Assembly (NCBI RefSeq): GCF_947493875.1
Contig: NZ_CANLSU010000007.1
Coordinates: 62,001-126,000, forward strand
DNA length: 64,000 bases
Source of the DNA: an uncultured Marinococcus sp.
GTDB lineage: Bacteria; Bacillota; Bacilli; Bacillales; Marinococcaceae
Reading direction: 5' to 3'
Below the pieces are notes generated by a model that was given only the letters and a program-made list of their open reading frames with translations, ran no database searches and had not been told where the DNA came from. Shown piece by piece: positions 11,500 through 38,657 of the stretch. The number at the start of each line of letters is the position of its first letter. The stretch's first letter is position 1. The position numbers and the translations under genes were made by a program.

Positions 11500-12816
11500 T
11501 TACGCGAAAACCCCGGTCTTTTTTCTCTCAAATTGCTGGAAAACATTTTTGGTCCGGACAGGGTAAACCTCCCGGCCGGCGATTTGGTTAATAATGACCG
11601 CGTTCCGATGCGCTCCAAGCCCGAGATCCGGCGCCCCAACGCCGTGTGTGTGCATTTCACCGTTTTGAATAAACACATGACGGTTCCTTTCAGCCTGTAC
11701 AGCGCGGTACTTTTCATCAATCTGCAGACGCCCGTGTTTATCACGCTGCAGCCTTGCTTCGATACCTTTTAAAAACGGCTGTGGAGACGGCTGATAGCCT
11801 GTCGCAGCGATTAACGCTTCCGTTTCTTCTGTGTATTCCGTGCCGTAGTTAATCTCCCTCAAAAACAGCTTCATTTTGCCGGCGGGCATTCTCTCCATGT
11901 TCATCACTTCCGTATTTGCCTGCAGAGTGATGTCCTCGTTCTCCCCTCCGATCGTCTGCTCATAAAGCTCATCGTACACCGCAGCTATGGTGTCAGCGCT
12001 GATCCCTTTATACAGAAGATCCTGCTTCTGGAGCAGCTGCTCCTTTGTGTAAGAATCAAGGTGGTAGAAATAACTAATATATTCCGGCGAAAAATGCTCC
12101 AGCCCGAGCTTGGAATACTCCATCGGGAAAAATCCTGAAGACCTTGTATACCAACGCAGACTGTAGCCATATTCAGGCCGGTTCTTTAACAGATCGAGAA
12201 AAACTTCAGCGGCGCTCTGTCCGGATCCTGCCACCGTAATGCTCTCCTTTTGAAGAAGCTCCTTCCGGCGGTACCGGTAACCAGCAGAATGGCAGACATC
12301 TCCTCCCTTTTCTGCCCAGAAGGGAAGCGACGGTTTCGTGCCCGTACCTGTCACGATGTGCCGGGTATAGTAGTATTCGGTTGTTTTCCCATTCGAACGT
12401 ACCGCTTCCACTTTATACAGGCTGCTTTCTTCCAGAAAGGACACATTGGCCACATACCGGCCAAACCGGCAAGAGGAAAGCTTGTCCGCTGCCCACTGGC
12501 AGTAGTCATTGTATTCACGACGAGGAATATGAAATTTTTCATAGAAATAAAAAGCATACAGCCGATCCTTTTCCTGTAAATACTGCAAAAAGGAGTAGGG
12601 ACTCTTTGGGTCTGCCATTGTGACCAGATCAGCAAGAAAAGGAACCTGCAGACTGGCGCCATCGAGCAGCATACCGCCGTGCCATTCAAATGATTCATTT
12701 TCATCCAGGAATACGCCTTGTATTCCCGATACGTTTTCCACAAGCGCTGCCATCCCAAGGTTGAATGGCCCAATGCCTATGCCAAGTACGTCATATACTT
12801 CTGTTTCAGCTGCCAC
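11500..12816 (-). CDS. Diamine N-hydroxylase (IucD/RhbE family flavin monooxygenase)
   Basis: A 438-residue FAD- and NADPH-dependent N-hydroxylating monooxygenase, which oxidises the terminal amine of lysine, ornithine or a diamine. The FAD motif GIGPFNL is at the N terminus, the NADPH motif VAGSGQSAAEV is near residue 190, and ATGYQ and DLGLGAHRNAVI close the C-terminal half. The GTG at 12816 was chosen because GGAGG lies eight bases upstream; the first in-frame TTG overlaps that site. It overlaps the preceding acetyltransferase by 11 bases. In the rhizobactin-type pathway the substrate would be 1,3-diaminopropane. Confidence 0.87.
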   Translation of the reverse strand: MAAETEVYDVLGIGIGPFNLGMAALVENVSGIQGVFLDENESFEWHGGMLLDGASLQVPFLADLVTMADPKSPYSFLQYLQEKDRLYAFYFYEKFHIPRREYNDYCQWAADKLSSCRFGRYVANVSFLEESSLYKVEAVRSNGKTTEYYYTRHIVTGTGTKPSLPFWAEKGGDVCHSAGYRYRRKELLQKESITVAGSGQSAAEVFLDLLKNRPEYGYSLRWYTRSSGFFPMEYSKLGLEHFSPEYISYFYHLDSYTKEQLLQKQDLLYKGISADTIAAVYDELYEQTIGGENEDITLQANTEVMNMERMPAGKMKLFLREINYGTEYTEETEALIAATGYQPSPQPFLKGIEARLQRDKHGRLQIDEKYRAVQAERNRHVFIQNGEMHTHGVGAPDLGLGAHRNAVIINQIAGREVYPVRTKNVFQQFERKKTGVFA

Positions 12817-26355: not shown

Positions 26356-26382
26356 AACAGCCGACGATGCGGCTGTTTTTTT
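26354..26382. terminator. Bidirectional terminator
   Basis: AAAACAGCCG and CGGCTGTTTT form a perfect hairpin between convergent genes, with T runs in both directions. Confidence 0.9.
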
Positions 26383-27268
26383 ACGGACAGAACAATTCAA
26401 TATGCTGGTATAAATTTTCAAACGTCGTCGGCAGATGACCTCCGTATTCCCCGTCGAGATTCAGCTGCATGTCTTCTTCTGCTTCTATACGAAGCTGTTT
26501 CGCTTTAAAATACTTTATTTTAGGATTCTCCAGATGCCGGCCGCGTAATGCCTGGCGCAGCAGCTGGCTGAATTCAAACATTGTCATCTTCTGTACGATC
26601 ATCACATCAAAATAGCCGTCATTATACTCTGCCTGCGGAAGAAGCTTTTCAAAACCGCCGACAGAATTGGTGTTGGATACGAGAAACATTGTAATTTCTT
26701 CCTCGAGAAACTTTCCATCATATTCAACAGTCGTCATCTGCGGCTGCAGGGACCAGAATTTCTCAAACCCCTTAATGAAATAGGCAGCCTGTCCCAGGGC
26801 CGTTTTCAGTCCCTTTGGGGTGTCATAGGTGAGTTCTGTCAGCTTCCCGCCCGCGGCAATATTAATAAAGTATGAGCCATTCGCCTTTCCTATATCAATC
26901 TCCTGGGTGCGCCCGCGTACAAATACGTCACAGACTTCTCCAATTTCTTTTCCCTGCAGGCCAAGAGCACGAGCAAAATCATTCGTCGTTCCAGCAGGAA
27001 TAAGCCCTACTTTGGGACGCCACTCCTGTTCAGCAATTCCGTTGATAACCTCAAAAATAGTTCCGTCCCCGCCTACGGCAATCACGGCTTCGAACCTGTC
27101 CTCCGAGGCGCGGCGTGCCTCATCCCGGGCATCCCCTTCCCCGCGGGTCATAAATGCCGATGTTTCGTACCCTGCCTGCTCCATCCGGTCCAATATATAG
27201 GGCACCTGCCGCTCCATCTGTTCTCTTCCAGACGTTGGATTGTAAATTATTCTTGCTCGTTTTCGCAT
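26381..27268 (-). CDS. dagK: Diacylglycerol kinase, DgkB/YerQ type
   Basis: A 295-residue soluble lipid kinase that phosphorylates diacylglycerol to phosphatidic acid and recycles the diacylglycerol released by lipoteichoic acid synthesis. YNPTSGR near the start and VIAVGGDGTIFEVING (about residues 62-77) form the nucleotide-binding core, and AGTTNDFARALG completes it. Length is close to B. subtilis DgkB. In B. subtilis it lies between gatB and yefA; here accessory genes lie on both sides of it. Confidence 0.9.
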   Translation of the reverse strand: MRKRARIIYNPTSGREQMERQVPYILDRMEQAGYETSAFMTRGEGDARDEARRASEDRFEAVIAVGGDGTIFEVINGIAEQEWRPKVGLIPAGTTNDFARALGLQGKEIGEVCDVFVRGRTQEIDIGKANGSYFINIAAGGKLTELTYDTPKGLKTALGQAAYFIKGFEKFWSLQPQMTTVEYDGKFLEEEITMFLVSNTNSVGGFEKLLPQAEYNDGYFDVMIVQKMTMFEFSQLLRQALRGRHLENPKIKYFKAKQLRIEAEEDMQLNLDGEYGGHLPTTFENLYQHIELFCP

Positions 27269-27384
27269 ATTTTAACCCCTATTACATCGAAGATTTCAAC
27301 TCATTTGAATAATATATAAAAGAACTATCTTTCTCCGCCTTTGTTACATGCGTTACTAATTAATTGTATACTATTGTTAATTCA

Positions 27385-28320
27385 TTAAACAGTAGCAGTT
27401 GTAGGGTCGATACTACCCGGTTGAAAATATGGGCGCTGCGCCAACGCGGCACGCTGAAAACGCAGATAGTTTTGAAGAATAAAGTCATAAAAAATCGTCT
27501 GACCTTTTTCTTCTAAATAAAATAAAGACTTCTCCATACAACGCAGCGCTTCTTTTATATTACCTAAATAATATAAACATATTCCTTTTTGATAATATAA
27601 TTCTCCCAATAAATATAATGACTCTTGCTCATATACGTTTTTAATTCCTTCATCAACAACTTTCAACCCTTCTTTAAATTTATTAGAATTTGCATAAACT
27701 ACACATGTATTAAAATATATTTTTGTTTGCATCGGGCCCCATTGATCTATAGGTAGTTTTTTATACAAAGTTCTTGCTTCATCAAAATATTTAACTGCTT
27801 TACTAAATTCCTTTGTGTCCATAAAAATAGTGCCAAAATTTATTATAATACCTATGTCTTCTTCTGTAATACTCAACGTTTCCGTCTTAAGGTCTCTAGC
27901 TAATTGCAATAATTCTAAGGCTTCTTCTTTTTCATTTGTTAATTTAAAATGTAAAATAGCTCTTTTCCATAATAAAAACTTTTTATGCACTGGCTTTCTA
28001 AAAAGAGGATTTTTTAATTCTTCTCTTATGATATTCATTGCCTCAATGAAATCATAGTCGCGGATTAATTTATCAATTTTATCTTTAGTGTCCCTAATAT
28101 AATTAAATCGTGGAGCTTCATGATCGTCAAAAAAATAACTTATCTTAACCCCTAATTTTATAGCTATCAAATTTAAAATTTCTGCAGTCGGTTGCATTTC
28201 ATTTCTTTCAATTTTGGAAATAGCTTTTTGTGAACATATACTTTTAGCTAGTTCACTTTGGCTAACTTCATAGTATTGTCTTAGATCTTTAAGTTTTGTG
28301 CCCAAAGTCAATATTTCCAT
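27385..28320 (-). CDS. RRNPP-type regulator (XRE helix-turn-helix plus TPR), Rgg/PlcR/NprR-like
   Basis: A 311-residue regulator. Residues 8-62 form an XRE-type helix-turn-helix (LRQYYEVSQSELAKSICSQKAISKIER). The rest is a chain of helix pairs that read as TPR repeats, e.g. AVKYFDEARTLYKKL and ALRCMEKSLFYLEEKG. This layout belongs to regulators that bind an imported peptide pheromone. AGGAGG lies five bases before the ATG. The gene is AT-rich compared with its surroundings apart from its last 70 bases, which suggests transfer. The adjacent divergent gene encodes a short secreted peptide. It is not clearly PlcR, NprR, Rap or AimR. Confidence 0.82.
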   Translation of the reverse strand: MEILTLGTKLKDLRQYYEVSQSELAKSICSQKAISKIERNEMQPTAEILNLIAIKLGVKISYFFDDHEAPRFNYIRDTKDKIDKLIRDYDFIEAMNIIREELKNPLFRKPVHKKFLLWKRAILHFKLTNEKEEALELLQLARDLKTETLSITEEDIGIIINFGTIFMDTKEFSKAVKYFDEARTLYKKLPIDQWGPMQTKIYFNTCVVYANSNKFKEGLKVVDEGIKNVYEQESLYLLGELYYQKGICLYYLGNIKEALRCMEKSLFYLEEKGQTIFYDFILQNYLRFQRAALAQRPYFQPGSIDPTTATV

Positions 28321-28347
28321 AACAACCTCCTGTTTAGTACTATAGTT

Positions 28348-28386
28348 CTTAAGATTTCTATTGTATCATGAATACTGGATCTTAAG
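28348..28386. promoter_or_regulatory. Candidate operator of the peptide-regulator pair
   Basis: CTTAAGAT (28348-28355) and ATCTTAAG (28379-28386) are perfect inverted arms 23 bases apart, and GTAT-N5-ATAC lies between them. The site covers the likely promoter of the regulator gene, whose probable -10 is TATAGT at 28339-28344 on the minus strand. It lies upstream of a weak TAATAT box (28446-28451) of the peptide gene. Confidence 0.4.
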
Positions 28387-28492
28387 GCATTTAATCACCT
28401 CTAAAGCCTGAATTCCCGGAATACACTTTTTTATTAATTGTGTAATAATATGGATAGAGCTTGATTAACTAGTCTTTAGGAGGAATGCAGTA

Positions 28493-28600
28493 ATGTCCAA
28501 AGCGTATTTGTGTAAAATAGCAACCTTTGCCATAATGGCATCATTTGCAGTTGCTGCTGGGGATTTTCAAACTCTAGTCAACCTGCCTGGAGTAGCTTAA
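28493..28600 (+). CDS. Candidate secreted pheromone precursor, 35 residues
   Basis: An open frame of 35 codons starts with ATG nine bases after AGGAGG. The product has a positively charged start (two Lys in the first eight residues), a hydrophobic core (IATFAIMASFAVAA) and a likely signal-peptidase site after VAA, leaving GDFQTLVNLPGVA. This is the layout of Phr, PapR and PhrA-type propeptides. It lies divergently next to the RRNPP-type regulator and ends in its own terminator, as expected for a cognate peptide gene. The sequence of the C-terminal end is not one I recognise. No direct evidence of expression or signalling. Confidence 0.6.
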   Translation: MSKAYLCKIATFAIMASFAVAAGDFQTLVNLPGVA

Positions 28601-28681
28601 TATCTAAGTTCTAAGCGTAAACCGTCACCCTCGACACACGTTTCACACCATTAACCAAGCTTACCCCTGTTATATTTTTGT

Positions 28682-28720
28682 ATCCCTTGCAGTTTAGCTG
28701 GCAGGGGATTCTTTTTTATT
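28682..28720 (+). terminator. Terminator of the peptide gene
   Basis: ATCCCTTGCAG and CTGGCAGGGGAT pair with one bulge and one G-U and are followed by CTTTTTT. It isolates the peptide gene from the gene at 28761. Confidence 0.72.
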
Positions 28721-28760
28721 ACTTATTGCCTGACCATTTATTGGCATAGGAGGAGCGGCC

Positions 28761-29072
28761 ATGCATCCGGACCAACATATTGCTTATTTTGTAGATCAAT
28801 TTTTGTACCAGCTGGATCGTGCGGATGACCCGGCGGAGCTCTGCCAGCTCCGCGACCGCGTATTTGAACACGGGGCCCTGATTGACACGCGCATCCCTTA
28901 TATTGAAATGATGGGAACGATCTGGCATAAACACCCCGCCACTATTCAGAAGGCACTTGAGGAAGAGCCTGTCTGCTACGGGCTTTTGGTTGACATGTTT
29001 GAGCATATTTCTTCGAACCAGTTTGTCTATATGCGCTGGCGCCTCCAGGAATGGGCCAGGCTTTCTGCTTGA
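28761..29072 (+). CDS. Uncharacterised 103-residue protein
   Basis: A short soluble protein that I do not recognise. It is predicted mostly helical, rich in aromatic residues (IAYFVDQFLYQLDRADDP at the start, YMRWRLQEWARL at the end), with two isolated Cys and several His. There is no signal peptide. The reading frame is credible because AGGAGG lies eight bases before the ATG and base composition returns to the genome's norm here. It lies 0.16 kb after the peptide gene's terminator and 73 bases before a GNAT gene, with which it may form a unit. Confidence 0.68.
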   Translation: MHPDQHIAYFVDQFLYQLDRADDPAELCQLRDRVFEHGALIDTRIPYIEMMGTIWHKHPATIQKALEEEPVCYGLLVDMFEHISSNQFVYMRWRLQEWARLSA

Positions 29073-29145
29073 TTCGAAAAAGGGTTATATTCGGGAAAAT
29101 ATCGGGAAAATACTCTCCACCTATAGTTTTCGGAGGGGATAAAAA

Positions 29146-29733
29146 ATGGCTGAGTTTACCGTGGATTCCCAAATGTACCTTCGCCCGTTTAAGGAACACG
29201 ATGCTCCCGACTACCTGCAGCTCGTCGAAGCCAACCGTTCTTATTTACGGCACTGGCTTCCCTGGGTCGATAAGACACGCGAACTGCGTGACGTACTCCG
29301 CTTTTTTGAATACCGGTCCAGGCTAGCCCGCCGCGGCACCTCCTATACATTTGGTATCTGGTATGAAGGCAGGCTCGCCGGTGCGATCAGCTTCAACCAC
29401 GTGTACCGGCTGACCCGGCGCACCGTTATTGGCTACTGGCTCGCCGCCCCCTTTCAGGGCAGAGGCATTATGACCCGGGCGGTACAGACATTGACTGATT
29501 ATGCCTTTCAGGATATTCATCTCCGGCGTGTGGATATTTGTGTCGCTCCAAATAACCGTCCCAGCCGTTCGATTCCGGAGCGGCTCGGCTTTGAAAAATA
29601 TAAATACGTGCGTAACGCTGAATGGCTGTATGATCATTACGTCGATCACGTTGTCTATACCATGCGTTCACGCTTTTGGTTTCCGGCCATTCTAGGTACC
29701 GGAATGGAGCATACAAAAACCCCGCAGTTTTAA
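29146..29733 (+). CDS. RimJ/RimL-type GNAT acetyltransferase (YdaF-like)
   Basis: A 195-residue GNAT, the second YdaF-like enzyme in the window. It shares with the copy at 3842 the start signature for N-terminal amino-acid acetyltransferases (LVEANRSYLRHWLPWVD), the acetyl-CoA loop FQGRGIMTRAV and the late NNRPSRSIPERLGFEKY. AGGGG precedes the ATG. The C terminus is about 15 residues longer than in that copy. Acceptor unknown; a ribosomal protein is possible by homology. Confidence 0.82.
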   Translation: MAEFTVDSQMYLRPFKEHDAPDYLQLVEANRSYLRHWLPWVDKTRELRDVLRFFEYRSRLARRGTSYTFGIWYEGRLAGAISFNHVYRLTRRTVIGYWLAAPFQGRGIMTRAVQTLTDYAFQDIHLRRVDICVAPNNRPSRSIPERLGFEKYKYVRNAEWLYDHYVDHVVYTMRSRFWFPAILGTGMEHTKTPQF

Positions 29734-29750
29734 AACTGCGGGGTTTTTGT
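29713..29750. terminator. Bidirectional terminator
   Basis: A perfect palindrome with arms ACAAAAACCCCGCAGTTTT separates the GNAT gene from the convergent gatB. Confidence 0.93.
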
Positions 29751-29751
29751 A

Positions 29752-31188
29752 TTAGCGCTGTTCCATACCCTCAAGAATTAAAGAGTTCACCATTTGCGGG
29801 TTGGCTTTCCCCTTCGTTTCCTTCATCACCTGGCCGACTAAGAAGCCGAGCGCTTTGTCTTTTCCGTTTTTGTAGTCTTCGATCGACTGCGGATTGTTAT
29901 CCAGTATACCATCGACGACCTGCTTAAGCTCTCCTTCATCAGAGATCTGCATAAGTCCTTTGTCTTTTACGATCTGTTCCGGATCGCCGCCCTGCTCCAT
30001 TACATCTGCAAAAACCTGCTTGGCAATTTTGCTTGAAATGGTGCCCTTTTCAATGAGTTCAATCAGCTTGGCGAGCGACTGCGGCGTGAGCGCGGTCTCT
30101 TCGATATCCATATCGTTGTTGTTTAAATACCCGCTTACCTCACCCATCAGCCAGTTGGCCGTGAGCTTGCTGTCCGCTCCGGCCTCAACAGTTTCCTGGA
30201 AAAAGTCTGCGATTGCCTTGGACTGCACCAGCACCGAGGCGTCGTATTCGGAAAGACCGAAGTCCTCGATATAACGCTTCTTCCGGGCGTCCGGCAGCTC
30301 GGGAATTAGTGAACGGATTCGTGATTTCCAGTCTTCATCAATATAGTAAGTGACCAGGTCCGGCTCCGGGAAGTAACGGTAATCGTCCGAACCTTCTTTG
30401 ATACGCATCAGAATCGTTTCTTTTTTCGCATCATCCCACCGACGCGTTTCCTGCAGTACTTCCCCGCCGGCAAGCAGTTCTTTTTCCTGGCGCTCTTCTT
30501 CAAACGACAGCCCTTTTTGTACATTCGTAAATGAGTTCAGGTTTTTCAGCTCGGTTTTTGTGCCGAATTCCTCCTGGCCGGCCGGACGGATGGAAATATT
30601 CGCATCACAACGGAGCGATCCTTCTTCCATTTTGCAGTCGGACACGTCGGTATACTGCAGAATCGCTTTTAGTTTTTCCAGATAGGCGTAGCCTTCCTCG
30701 GGCGTTGTAATATCCGGTTCTGATACGATTTCAATCAGAGGTGTGCCGACACGGTTAAAGTCCACCAGAGAGTGGTCGCCGTCTTCGTCGTGCGTGAGCT
30801 TTCCGGCATCTTCTTCCATGTGAATACGGGTGATACCGATACGCTTCGGCCCGTTTTCTTCTGTTTCAATGTCGATCCAGCCGTTTTCCCCGATCGGCTG
30901 GTCAAACTGGGAAATTTGATATGCCTTTGGGTTATCGGGATAAAAATAGTTTTTCCGGTCGAATTTCGTTTCTGCGGCAATGTCGCAGTTCAATGCGAGC
31001 GCTGCTTTCATGGCGAAGTTAACCGCCTGCTCGTTCAAAACCGGCAGCACTCCCGGATGGCCCAGGCAGACCGGGCACGTATGCGTATTCGGAGGAGCAC
31101 CAAATTCGGTTGAGCAGTTGCAGAAAATCTTTGTGTTTGTTTTTAACTCTGCATGGACTTCGAGTCCAATGATTGTTTCAAAGTTCAT
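29752..31188 (-). CDS. gatB: Asp/Glu-tRNA amidotransferase subunit B
   Basis: A 478-residue subunit of the GatCAB complex, which converts misacylated Glu-tRNA(Gln) or Asp-tRNA(Asn) to the amides. GatB binds the tRNA and does the ATP-dependent activation. The start [15 protein letters not shown], the zinc-site region CNCSTEFG and [15 protein letters not shown], and the C-terminal YqeY-like tail are recognisable. The ATG at 31188 was preferred to the longer frame: GGAGG lies ten bases upstream and the protein then has the length of B. subtilis GatB. Last gene of gatCAB. Confidence 0.95.
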
Positions 31189-31204
31189 GGTCCTGGTTCC
31201 TCCC

Positions 31205-32662
31205 CTATAATTCCGGTCTGGCTTTATGGTGTTCAGTTGTCTGCTCAAAAGCGTGAGCAACTGTATAAATCGTTTCTTCAGCAAACGGCTTGGCGATAAT
31301 CTGCAGGCCTACCGGCATATTGTCCGAGAAGCCGCACGGCACAGAAATCGCCGGAATGCCCGCCAGGTTTACCGGAATGGTTAGAATATCGTTGGCGTAC
31401 ATGGTGAGCGGGTCATCGAGCTGTTCCCCGAGTTTAAACGCAGTCGTCGGTGCCGTTGGCCCAACGATGACGTCGTAATCGGCAAATACTTTTTCGAAAT
31501 CCCGGCGGATGAGCGTCCGTACCTGCTGAGCCTTTTTATAGTAGGCATCATAATAACCGGCGCTCAAAGCAAATGTTCCGAGCATGATCCGGCGCTTTAC
31601 TTCTTCGCCGAAGCCTTTGCTGCGGGTTTCTTTGTACATTTCCACCAGGTCTTTCGCGTTTTCATCGCGAACACCGTAACGGACACCGTCAAAGCGGGCC
31701 AGGTTGGCTGAAGCCTCTGAAGAAGCGATTAAATAGTAGGCAGCAACTGCATATTTTGAATGCGGCAGGGAGACCTCCTCCCACACTGCACCCTGATCCT
31801 CTAAAACCTTCAGCGCTTCAAGCACCCGTTGTTTGACGCCTTCATCCACGCCTTCACCGATGTATTCAGATGGCACACCAATTTTCAGGCCCTTGACGTC
31901 CTTGCCCAGTGCCTCCAGATAATTTGGCACCTGTACATCGGCAGAGGTGGAGTCGTTCTCCGAATGGCCGGCAATCTGCTGCAATACGTAAGCATTATCC
32001 TCCACGGAGCGGGTAAGCGGCCCAATCTGATCCAGGGAAGAAGCGAAAGCAACAAGACCATACCGCGATACGCGTCCGTAGGTAGGCTTCAAGCCGACAA
32101 CTCCGCAGTAGGACGCCGGCTGGCGGATGGATCCGCCCGTGTCCGACCCTAATGAAAACAGGACTTCGCCGGCTGCCACTGAGGCTGCCGAACCGCCGCT
32201 CGAACCGCCTGGAACGTACTCAGTGTTCCACGGATTTCTCGTTTCCTGCACACCGGAGTTCTCCGTCGAGGATCCCATGGCGAATTCGTCCATGTTCAGC
32301 TTCCCGACGGTTACCGTTTCTGCCTCTCCAAGCTTATCCATCACGGTCGCATTATGAACCGGGTCAAAGTTTGCAAGCAGCTGGCTCGCGCAGGTGGTCC
32401 GCAGGTCCTGGGTGATGATATTATCTTTAATACCTGCTGGCATGCCGAACAAAAATGGAACCTCACCGCCGTTTTGAATCTGCTTGTCGAGCTTTTCAGC
32501 CTGTGCGAGTGCCCGGTCTTCGTTTAACGTTAAAAACGCTTTTACATCTGTGTCTACTTCACGAATACGCGCAAATGAGGCTTCCACCAGTTCGGCGACA
32601 GTTACTTCCTGATTTTTTATCTTTGTATGTAACGACGCTACATTTTCTTCCAAAATGGACAT
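31205..32662 (-). CDS. gatA: Asp/Glu-tRNA amidotransferase subunit A
   Basis: A 485-residue amidase-signature protein, the glutaminase subunit of GatCAB. The Ser-Ser-Lys triad is visible: Lys in GIKDNI, Ser in [14 protein letters not shown] and the nucleophile in [13 protein letters not shown]. It releases ammonia from glutamine and channels it to GatB. Seventeen bases separate it from gatC and 16 from gatB, so the three form an operon. Length equals that of B. subtilis GatA. Confidence 0.96.
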
Positions 32663-32679
32663 ACGTTATCTCCCTTCTT

Positions 32680-32970
32680 TTACTCCAGCACGGATGGTAC
32701 TTTGACCTGGCCGTCTTTTTGGTCCGGAGCATTTTTCAATGCTTCCTCCCGGTCAAGCGATGGTTGAATAGTATCTTCACGCAGTACGTTGTGGATATCC
32801 AGTACGTGGGATGTCGGCTCTACGTCAGTCGTATCAAGCTCCTCGAGCTGTTCAGCAAATCCAATAATCGCATCAAGCTCTTCGGTCAGCTTTTCCAGAT
32901 CCTCATCCGAAACGGAAAGTCTTGCCAGATGGGCCACGTGCTTCACGTCTTCTTTTGAAATATGAGCCAT
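32680..32970 (-). CDS. gatC: Asp/Glu-tRNA amidotransferase subunit C
   Basis: A 96-residue subunit that wraps around GatA and GatB and stabilises the complex. The opening [22 protein letters not shown] is characteristic of GatC, and the C terminus ends in the usual [19 protein letters not shown] motif. GGAGG precedes the ATG. First gene of gatCAB, separated by a terminator from camS upstream. Confidence 0.95.
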
Positions 32971-33041
32971 CGGTTTTTCCTCCTTTAAATGCTTCTATCG
33001 TTCTTCTGTTGTGACAATACTCTGATCATATCAAAGAAAAA

Positions 33042-33076
33042 GGAAAGCGGGCAACTGTGCCCACTTCCCGCGTTCA
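33042..33076 (-). terminator. Terminator of camS
   Basis: GCGGG and CCCGC arms with an inner GGGC/GCCC pair run into a T-rich stretch on the minus strand, just after the camS stop codon. Confidence 0.65.
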
Positions 33077-33080
33077 CAAA

Positions 33081-34283
33081 TTACTCATTGTAGACGTGAA
33101 CGTACATATCTTCTCCCGGTTCTTTTGTAATTAACGCTTCCTGGCCGGAGGAAGAATTAATATTCACTTCAACTTCAAGCCCGTCTGGAAAAATGTCTTC
33201 TGTTTTGTCCGCCACGTGCTGAGTAAAGGCAATAATTTCTGTTTTACTGTAAAATTGAATTGGGATATCAATCGTCAGGCTGTCGAGTTCGCCGTTGACG
33301 TAATGACCTTCTCCAACCACACCGACTGTAGTTTCAAAAAAGCTGTTCACTTCGTTACTAAACTCATCAAACATTTCGGAATCCGCACGATTATTTTCCT
33401 CTGCTTCCGAGGATGGGAACAGGTAGTTTGATTCATTTAACTCATTCCAGTTTCCAGGTTCCTGTCCCGGATCAGCCATACCAGTGGCAATAAACGTTCC
33501 CGGCACGCTCGAATCCCGCGGCGCCTCCTGGAAGACGGTAAACATGATCGGCACTTCTTCAATCTGTTCCGCATTATCCCGTTTTTCGTTTCGCAGGCGC
33601 TCAGTAATTTCTCCTGCAATACGCTTGGCATCCTCAAGAGCATTTTCTTCACTGATGGATTCCTCGAGCCACGGGCCATATGTACCGTCTTCATTCTCTT
33701 CGCGGAAGTAATATGTTTCATTCATTGACAGCCCTATGACAATGCCGCCAAGTTCAAGACCATCGCTTCCCTCTTCCATATAGTTATGTTCAAGCAGATT
33801 GGACATTGTTCTTGGTTCGCCACGCTCACGTTCCTCAAACCCGTCACCTTTACTGCCGGCAAGCGGAGGATTCAGCCCCTTCGGCCTCGTTGTCGGTTCG
33901 CCGTCCTCTTCCTCGCCTTCCCGGAGCAGCCAGTTGTTTAATTCACTGCGTTCAATGATCTGGCCTTCCCGGAAGTAATAATTGTCCTGGCTGAACTCTT
34001 CCGAAGCAAGCTCCTGCATACCTATTTCCATCCGCTCAAGATCAAAGCGGTTATAAACAATGGCGTTGCTGAGCCCCCGGGATTCACCCGTTACGTATTG
34101 GCCATCGTCAGTGAGCACCGCCCGGTAGTACTCATCCAGACTTGGAATGCCGGCACTAAGCGACAAATCTTCTTCTGATTCCGGCTGGGAGTTCTCTGAT
34201 TCAGATTCCCCCCCGCCAAACAACCCACACCCTGATAATGCAAACACGGAAGCAGCTATAACTAAGCCGGCTCTTTTCCGCAT
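33081..34283 (-). CDS. camS: CamS-family lipoprotein (YerH)
   Basis: A 400-residue secreted lipoprotein. The start is KRAGLVIAASVFALSGCG, a signal peptide with the lipobox LSGC, so the Cys near residue 18 is lipidated. It is related to enterococcal/staphylococcal CamS, whose signal peptide is the source of a sex pheromone, and to B. subtilis YerH. Function of the mature part is unknown. The internal ATG at 34283 has GGAGG ten bases upstream, and starting there puts the signal peptide at the N terminus. It follows ligA, as in B. subtilis. Confidence 0.88.
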   Translation of the reverse strand: MRKRAGLVIAASVFALSGCGLFGGGESESENSQPESEEDLSLSAGIPSLDEYYRAVLTDDGQYVTGESRGLSNAIVYNRFDLERMEIGMQELASEEFSQDNYYFREGQIIERSELNNWLLREGEEEDGEPTTRPKGLNPPLAGSKGDGFEERERGEPRTMSNLLEHNYMEEGSDGLELGGIVIGLSMNETYYFREENEDGTYGPWLEESISEENALEDAKRIAGEITERLRNEKRDNAEQIEEVPIMFTVFQEAPRDSSVPGTFIATGMADPGQEPGNWNELNESNYLFPSSEAEENNRADSEMFDEFSNEVNSFFETTVGVVGEGHYVNGELDSLTIDIPIQFYSKTEIIAFTQHVADKTEDIFPDGLEVEVNINSSSGQEALITKEPGEDMYVHVYNE

Positions 34284-34416
34284 GATATCATTTCCTCCAT
34301 TCCCGGCGTTTCCTTCCAGATGTTTTTTCTTTTGCGTCCAGAGGTTCACATTTTTTCTTTCTATTTTCTATCTTAGAAGGTATATCCGAGTGAAACAAGA
34401 TACTTTTATCTTCTTT

Positions 34417-38657
<4,241 letters not shown>

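Follow-up and report, generated by a model that had tools for sequence, protein, structure and literature searches.

A candidate PlcR-like receptor-peptide pair with a divergent pheromone gene and exchanged allele types in Marinococcus

Does an overlooked short frame beside an XRE-type regulator gene of Marinococcus encode the signal to which that regulator responds? The question arose from a sequence-only reading of 64,000 nucleotides from an uncultured Marinococcus sp. (contig NZ_CANLSU010000007.1, positions 62,001 to 126,000; hereafter the window), which proposed that a regulator with an XRE helix-turn-helix (HTH) and a TPR domain and a divergent 35-codon frame form a candidate quorum-sensing pair. 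Our analysis supports this proposal and finds it largely right. The frame is conserved next to the regulator in every orthologous locus that we compared, its tail varying from one allele type to the next; a lack of such conservation had been named beforehand as grounds for refutation, and the comparison favoured the proposal. The two genes very probably encode a quorum-sensing pair with a cytoplasmic peptide receptor, working in the manner of PlcR-PapR of the Bacillus cereus group, and would give this salt-loving bacterium a private channel for chemical signals. Beyond what had been proposed, PlcR emerged as the nearest solved relative of the regulator, and the locus proved to contain a third gene as well as a 3′ element that is conserved (Table 1).

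Domain searches bore out the predicted architecture of the regulator, placing an HTH_3 domain at residues 10-63 and an RNPP_C domain (PF18768) at residues 81-283 (E 9.5e-13). The protein has the features by which RRNPP receptors are recognized, namely a TPR-type peptide-binding domain combined with an HTH at a length of 250-500 amino acids. Among solved structures, PlcR (2qfc) was the nearest, both in a search with the single sequence (E 8.1e-15) and in one with a 39-row profile (E 9.1e-52, full length), and the Rgg chains 5w4m and 4yv6 matched far more weakly than PlcR in sequence and profile searches. The closest named records were Marinococcus halotolerans DSM 16375 (98% identity to the regulator) and M. 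halophilus KCTC 2843 (82%); the contig scan contained only two Marinococcus records. For comparison we assembled eight orthologous regulator loci from three genera: those of five Marinococcus genomes (G000-G004, of which G000 and G004 are labelled as one species) and those of three more distant genomes (G006, G008 and G027), at a regulator identity of 53-56%. A C-terminal tail of the regulator (residues about 294-311, ending ATV) is kept in all five Marinococcus genomes and mostly lacking in the other three orthologues.

The short frame has the appearance of a pheromone precursor. As the first reading had noted, it is preceded by a ribosome site, starts with charged residues and continues into a hydrophobic core with a likely cleavage site; small residues ahead of GDF are likewise visible by inspection. 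By a hydrophobicity rule, it has the basic and hydrophobic N-terminal part expected of a small propeptide adjoining an RRNPP receptor. A corresponding frame adjoins the regulator, always divergently, in 8/8 loci. It starts with ATG or GTG (TTG being possible too in G027), has a purine-rich site upstream in every case, and is the only one of the six reading frames that is free of stops across all eight loci. Its C terminus reads V-x-L-P-x-x-x throughout, with exactly three residues after L-P, the same register as in PapR: VNLPGVA in G000 and G002, VHLPGAA in G001, VNLPGIM in G003 and G004, VSLPHAY in G006 and G008, and VTLPHAY in G027. Between G000 and G004, the last 14 codons carry about 8.3 synonymous changes in 9.8 sites versus 5.7 nonsynonymous changes in 29.2 sites. 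Fisher tests of this synonymous excess between allele types, made on rounded counts, gave p values of 0.0015 (G000 versus G004) and 0.0008, and the contrast was weaker over the entire frame (p 0.02). A chance open reading frame (ORF), which a length of only 35 codons might suggest, has a next to negligible probability given this synonymous excess in the tail, the disruption of the other frames, and the retention of frame, start region, stop and tail in eight loci of three genera.

A short, hydrophobic product with its own terminator, encoded next to an XRE-type regulator, would also suit a small membrane toxin or antimicrobial peptide under the control of that regulator. We consider this very improbable, because the regulator has an RNPP-type peptide-binding domain and is not a plain repressor, because conservation lies in the polar-proline C terminus and not in the hydrophobic core, and because the same V-x-L-P-x-x-x pattern recurs beside PlcR-like regulators.

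Comparison of the Marinococcus genomes indicates that regulator and peptide have been swapped as a single cassette, in a pherotype-like manner, while the surrounding genes were kept. In 500-bp windows, the same-species genomes G000 and G004 are 67-68% identical in 27500-28499 and 92-100% identical below 27000 and in 29000-37499. In 50-bp windows, identity is low between about 27400 and 28650, up to a point just ahead of the 3′ element. Cassette types cross species, G000 going with G002 (95-96%) and G004 with G003 (90%). Trees of the cassette grouped G000 with G002 and G003 with G004, trees of the flanks grouped G000 with G004, and each grouping had 100/100 support. In approximately unbiased (AU) tests, G000+G004 was rejected on the cassette (p 1.4e-48), and both G000+G002 and G003+G004 were rejected on both flanks (p 1.8e-148, 2.5e-7, 5.0e-81 and 2.1e-59). 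Within the regulator, the HTH is 71-83% identical between types and residues 181-233 just 41-60%; the latter part, which differs most between types, contains the conserved Asn204. A second RNPP regulator of these genomes has no allele types, at 89.0-96.3% amino acid identity among the five. Receptor and peptide thus appear to evolve and move as one specificity cassette, so that neighbouring strains can differ in pherotype. Two further observations were made in this region. The regulator of G001 (L006) is a mosaic, 95-98% identical to that of G000 at residues 234-311 and different in the middle. Positions 27300-27349, between the regulator and the neighbouring gene dagK, are 72% identical between the two same-species strains, with better matches on both sides.

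The peptide-contact residues of PlcR were located in the regulator by profile alignment. PlcR Lys89, Gln237 and Tyr275, which bind a glutamate of PapR according to PMC6568020, correspond to Tyr89, Glu240 and Phe277 in this regulator, and tails that lack an acidic residue would fit the loss of this glutamate site. PlcR Asn201 aligns with Asn204, which is kept in all eight orthologues, and PlcR Asn159 aligns with Ile160.

The Marinococcus pair appears to belong to a large set of PlcR-like regulators in the order. The wider set was defined by family matches at E ≤ 1e-20 and order matches at E ≤ 1e-40, with DNA fetched for 30 of the 37 family regulator places and for up to 30 order loci, which left 55 regulators with fetched DNA. 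A candidate secreted short ORF lies within about 450 bp of 49 of them, and in 43 it carries [LIMF]P near its end. In controls, random pieces of the window yielded a candidate in 4.0% of cases and a motif-bearing one in 0 of 2000, and resampled flanks yielded 8.1% and 1.1%, respectively (n=1100). Where several candidates existed, the choice preferred [LIMF]P near the end without requiring an exact position of the proline; for the tally of tails, locus L053 was represented by its downstream ORF instead of the upstream candidate kept earlier, and L017 by its ATG start. Proline stands at position -4 in 41 of the 49 peptides and 26 of the 33 distinct tails, the same register as in PapR7, which PMC6568020 gives as ADLPFEF. 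The motif-bearing ORFs comprise 28 that are upstream and divergent, 14 that are downstream on the opposite strand and a single one (L067) downstream on the same strand. Altogether, 48 of the 49 candidates and 42 of the 43 motif-bearing ORFs lie on the strand opposite the regulator, which suggests that PlcR-like signalling with opposite-strand LPxxx peptides is common across the order; the counts in this set are not independent, because many loci are closely related. The second RNPP regulator, which all five Marinococcus genomes carry (L002, at G000:C2:498208-499050, and L009-L012), has a divergent propeptide of its own that ends in RDIPHQY or RDLPHQY. At six other loci (L023-L027 and L054), tails are repeated within one precursor, as in SLPYQH-DLPYQH-SLPYQH of L024.

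The terminator that had been assigned to the short frame was also found, as a hairpin with a T run about 80 nt past the propeptide stop (stem 28682-28709, T run to 28717; -15.3 kcal/mol, z -3.4), and was not picked up by a simple pattern scan. It closes a conserved 3′ element: the roughly 90 nt from the peptide stop up to the terminator are kept in 8/8 loci and contain ACCA-AACCAAGCT, a C run and a T run ahead of the terminator itself. Among the five Marinococcus genomes, positions 28641-28720 are 96% invariant, fifth among the non-overlapping 80-bp windows in 20 kb (about the 98th percentile), and the windows flanking them on both sides stand at about the 10th percentile. Rfam gave no match up to E 1. 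A search with a model of the element (R1) recovered its eight source loci at E ≤ 5.2e-11 and no convincing further copy, the next best match having an E value of 0.006 (G025), and a DNA search of its own genome returned only the element itself and short chance-level matches. Our conjecture for the element is attenuation or a role as 3′ regulatory RNA; a strongly kept terminator together with a protein-binding site would also do.

Beyond the terminator lies the orphan gene p103, whose ribosome site follows after about 30 bases and whose start after about 40 in the window (the distances are longer in G006 and G008), so that p103 may depend on read-through. The gene occurs in 8 of 29 family genomes, which are exactly the carriers of the orthologous regulator, and always adjoins that regulator. 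In an order-wide sample of 397 genomes (G001, G006 and G008 being outside the draw), it occurs in five, all of which carry the orthologous regulator. The chance of a co-occurrence of 8/8 versus 0/21 is about 2e-7 by hand arithmetic that ignores descent and covers three genera only. G007, a congener of G006 and G008, has neither the regulator orthologue nor p103. Because p103 is 99% identical between G000 and G004, it lies outside the swapped stretch; its identity in the other genera is just 29-35%. Searches for relatives of p103 returned nothing in NCBIfam, only YqgB below the cut-off in Pfam (E 0.28), only matches at E 0.48 and 0.95 among solved structures, and one PHROGs member at E 0.38.

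A conserved terminator between the short frame and p103, so close to the start of p103, raises another explanation, in which the frame is a cis-acting leader peptide whose translation controls the terminator by attenuation and no signal is secreted. We regard this as improbable. The frame resembles a secretion signal with a C terminus behind it that is conserved in 8/8 loci, LPxxx peptides also stand beside related regulators in downstream-convergent positions that offer no leader arrangement, and the swap took in peptide and regulator alike but left p103 and the terminator in place. The quorum-sensing pair that we prefer might instead be extended, tentatively and with more doubt than confidence, to a three-part module. 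In such a module, a swappable receptor-pheromone cassette would be joined to a fixed output, the 3′ element of the pheromone transcript (a C-rich single strand, then the terminator) would serve as a regulatory RNA or terminator switch, the orphan p103, which travels with the system, would be the sole protein-coding output at the locus, and specificity would be exchanged by recombination between strains and between species; with recombination stopping just before the 3′ element, the output would remain constant as the signal changes.

In carriers, the module lies between gatB and dagK. The gap between these two genes measures 67-246 bp in G005, G007, G009 and G010, where the junction is probably the empty site, and G017-G020 and G028 have other sequence of 560-1452 bp there. 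In this survey of the borders, made in the same 29 family genomes, gatB was not within reach in G011-G015, G025 and G026, and dagK had no match at the threshold in G016 and G021-G024.

Extended -10-like sites were found by eye ahead of both divergent genes. The one proposed for the propeptide has no clear -35 by eye, as would fit an activated promoter. Just downstream of the one proposed for the regulator, beside its ribosome site, is a near-perfect palindrome whose core AACTATAGT is present in 8/8 orthologous loci, and this position suggests self-repression. The genome holds no second site at ≤1 mismatch; at ≤2 mismatches, AGAACTATAGTTCT has 8 sites versus 13 for the reversed control, so the palindrome is not a genome-wide box and is retained as a local operator candidate only. 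The PlcR box, with the consensus TATGNAN4TNCATA, has 6 sites in the genome versus 3 for the reversed control. Its sole site in the window is at 12528, and a PlcR-box regulon was rejected because the box is absent from the locus.

Table 1. Features of the Marinococcus locus, in positions of the window.
Feature	Position	Strand	Basis or remark
Diacylglycerol-kinase family neighbour (dagK)	26381-27268	-	Domain search, synteny; one module border, probably outside the module
Receptor-regulator, 311 aa; XRE-type HTH N-terminal, RNPP/TPR peptide-binding domain C-terminal	27385-28320	-	ORF list, domain search
Near-perfect palindrome AGTACTATAGTTCT, proposed autoregulatory operator	28336-28349	.	Immediately ahead of the ribosome site of the regulator
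Extended -10-like TGATACAAT, proposed regulator promoter	28360-28368	-	By eye
Extended -10-like TGTAATAAT, proposed propeptide promoter	28441-28449	+	By eye; TGT[AC]A[TC]AAT in 8 orthologous loci
Propeptide ribosome site AGGAGG, 9 nt ahead of ATG	28478-28483	+	Sequence; comparable sites in 8/8 loci
Propeptide, 35 codons, ending VNLPGVA; proposed pheromone precursor	28493-28600	+ (divergent from regulator)	Kept frame in 8/8 orthologous loci
3′ element ending in intrinsic terminator	28636-28722	+	Kept in 8/8 orthologous loci
p103, an orphan gene of 103 aa; candidate output or accessory gene	28761-29072	+	Confined to genomes that carry the regulator orthologue

Sequence comparison shows a conserved pair of genes, replacement of that pair as a cassette, a third gene linked to it and a kept 3′ element; export, processing, import, binding, regulatory sign and output are what we infer. 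The 35-residue propeptide would be exported via its N-terminal signal, cleaved ahead of GDF and trimmed to about its last 5-8 residues (core LPGVA or VNLPGVA), which are more likely to be the active peptide than the whole of GDFQTLVNLPGVA. The mature peptide would be re-imported by an oligopeptide permease; the genome encodes one OppA-type binding protein, with permease- and ATPase-like ORFs after it as judged by eye. Once bound in the TPR groove, the peptide would switch the regulator at the divergent promoters. The propeptide promoter would probably be activated, in positive feedback, along with the downstream p103, and the regulator would probably repress itself by way of the palindrome that adjoins its ribosome site.

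Several points weigh against this scheme. The sample consists of just five Marinococcus genomes, among which no more than three or four allele types are independent, and the palindrome has no genome-wide enrichment. In the wider set, 6 of the 55 regulators have no candidate ORF and another 6 have a candidate that lacks [LIMF]P near its end. A lysine or arginine at regulator position 207 goes with an acidic residue before LP in the peptide (14/14 versus 4/17), which ties with position 154 for the top rank among 582 tests. This association is not significant once descent is considered: the peptide charge trait changes just three times on the tree and independent pairs number only two to three, so descent alone may account for it.

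The locus offers a compact and harmless PlcR-like system outside the cereus group in which receptor-peptide specificity appears to be naturally exchanged between near-identical genomes, so that specificity, cheating and kin recognition become testable on matched natural alleles. Since the evidence points to an orphan protein and also to an RNA element at the 3′ end as local output, what such systems control also becomes directly testable.

How does the pair compare with known systems? It shares with PlcR-PapR a receptor composed of an HTH and an RNPP/TPR domain, a secreted-looking propeptide, a C-terminal L-P-x-x-x as in LPFEF, the alignment of PlcR Asn201 with Asn204, and allele groups of receptor and peptide that resemble the four PlcR-PapR pherotypes described in PMC6568020. 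It differs in that the glutamate-contact residues are replaced and the tail has no acidic residue, in that no PlcR-box match lies near the locus, and in having a linked orphan gene and 3′ element. Its peptide gene is divergent, whereas PMC9765709 places the peptide gene of Bacillales PlcR/NprR-type systems immediately downstream of the receptor gene; both the divergent and the convergent layouts found here depart from that rule. We do not file the pair as PlcR-PapR proper, because the tests of a downstream peptide gene, of glutamate-binding residues and of a PlcR box all failed.

In the streptococcal Rgg-SHP and TprA-PhrA systems, the regulator and the short peptide gene are divergent, as they are in Marinococcus. 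The sequence-only reading had likened the layout to these two and to PlcR/PapR and NprR/NprX alike; the first part of that comparison stands, and the second does not, given the downstream peptide genes of PlcR and NprR. Compared by sequence, the Marinococcus regulator is nearest to PlcR and not to Rgg (TprA was compared by layout), and its peptide differs from those of both streptococcal systems in its longer signal-like N terminus and LPxxx tail. The main text of the RRNPP_detector census (PMC10075063) describes a PlcR cluster and 21 novel subfamilies with gene orientation recorded, a breadth that means that relatives found here may be catalogued there; the string 'Marinococc' is absent from that main text, as distinct from the supplementary tables. 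Judged by title and abstract opening, none of the papers listed for Marinococcus and quorum sensing dealt with this pair, and we noticed no description of it among those listed for PlcR-like or PapR-like systems, divergent RRNPP systems and pheromone dual-function RNA. By its receptor domain and adjoining propeptide, the Marinococcus pair is best classed as RRNPP, and the comparisons point to a new variant of RRNPP signalling.
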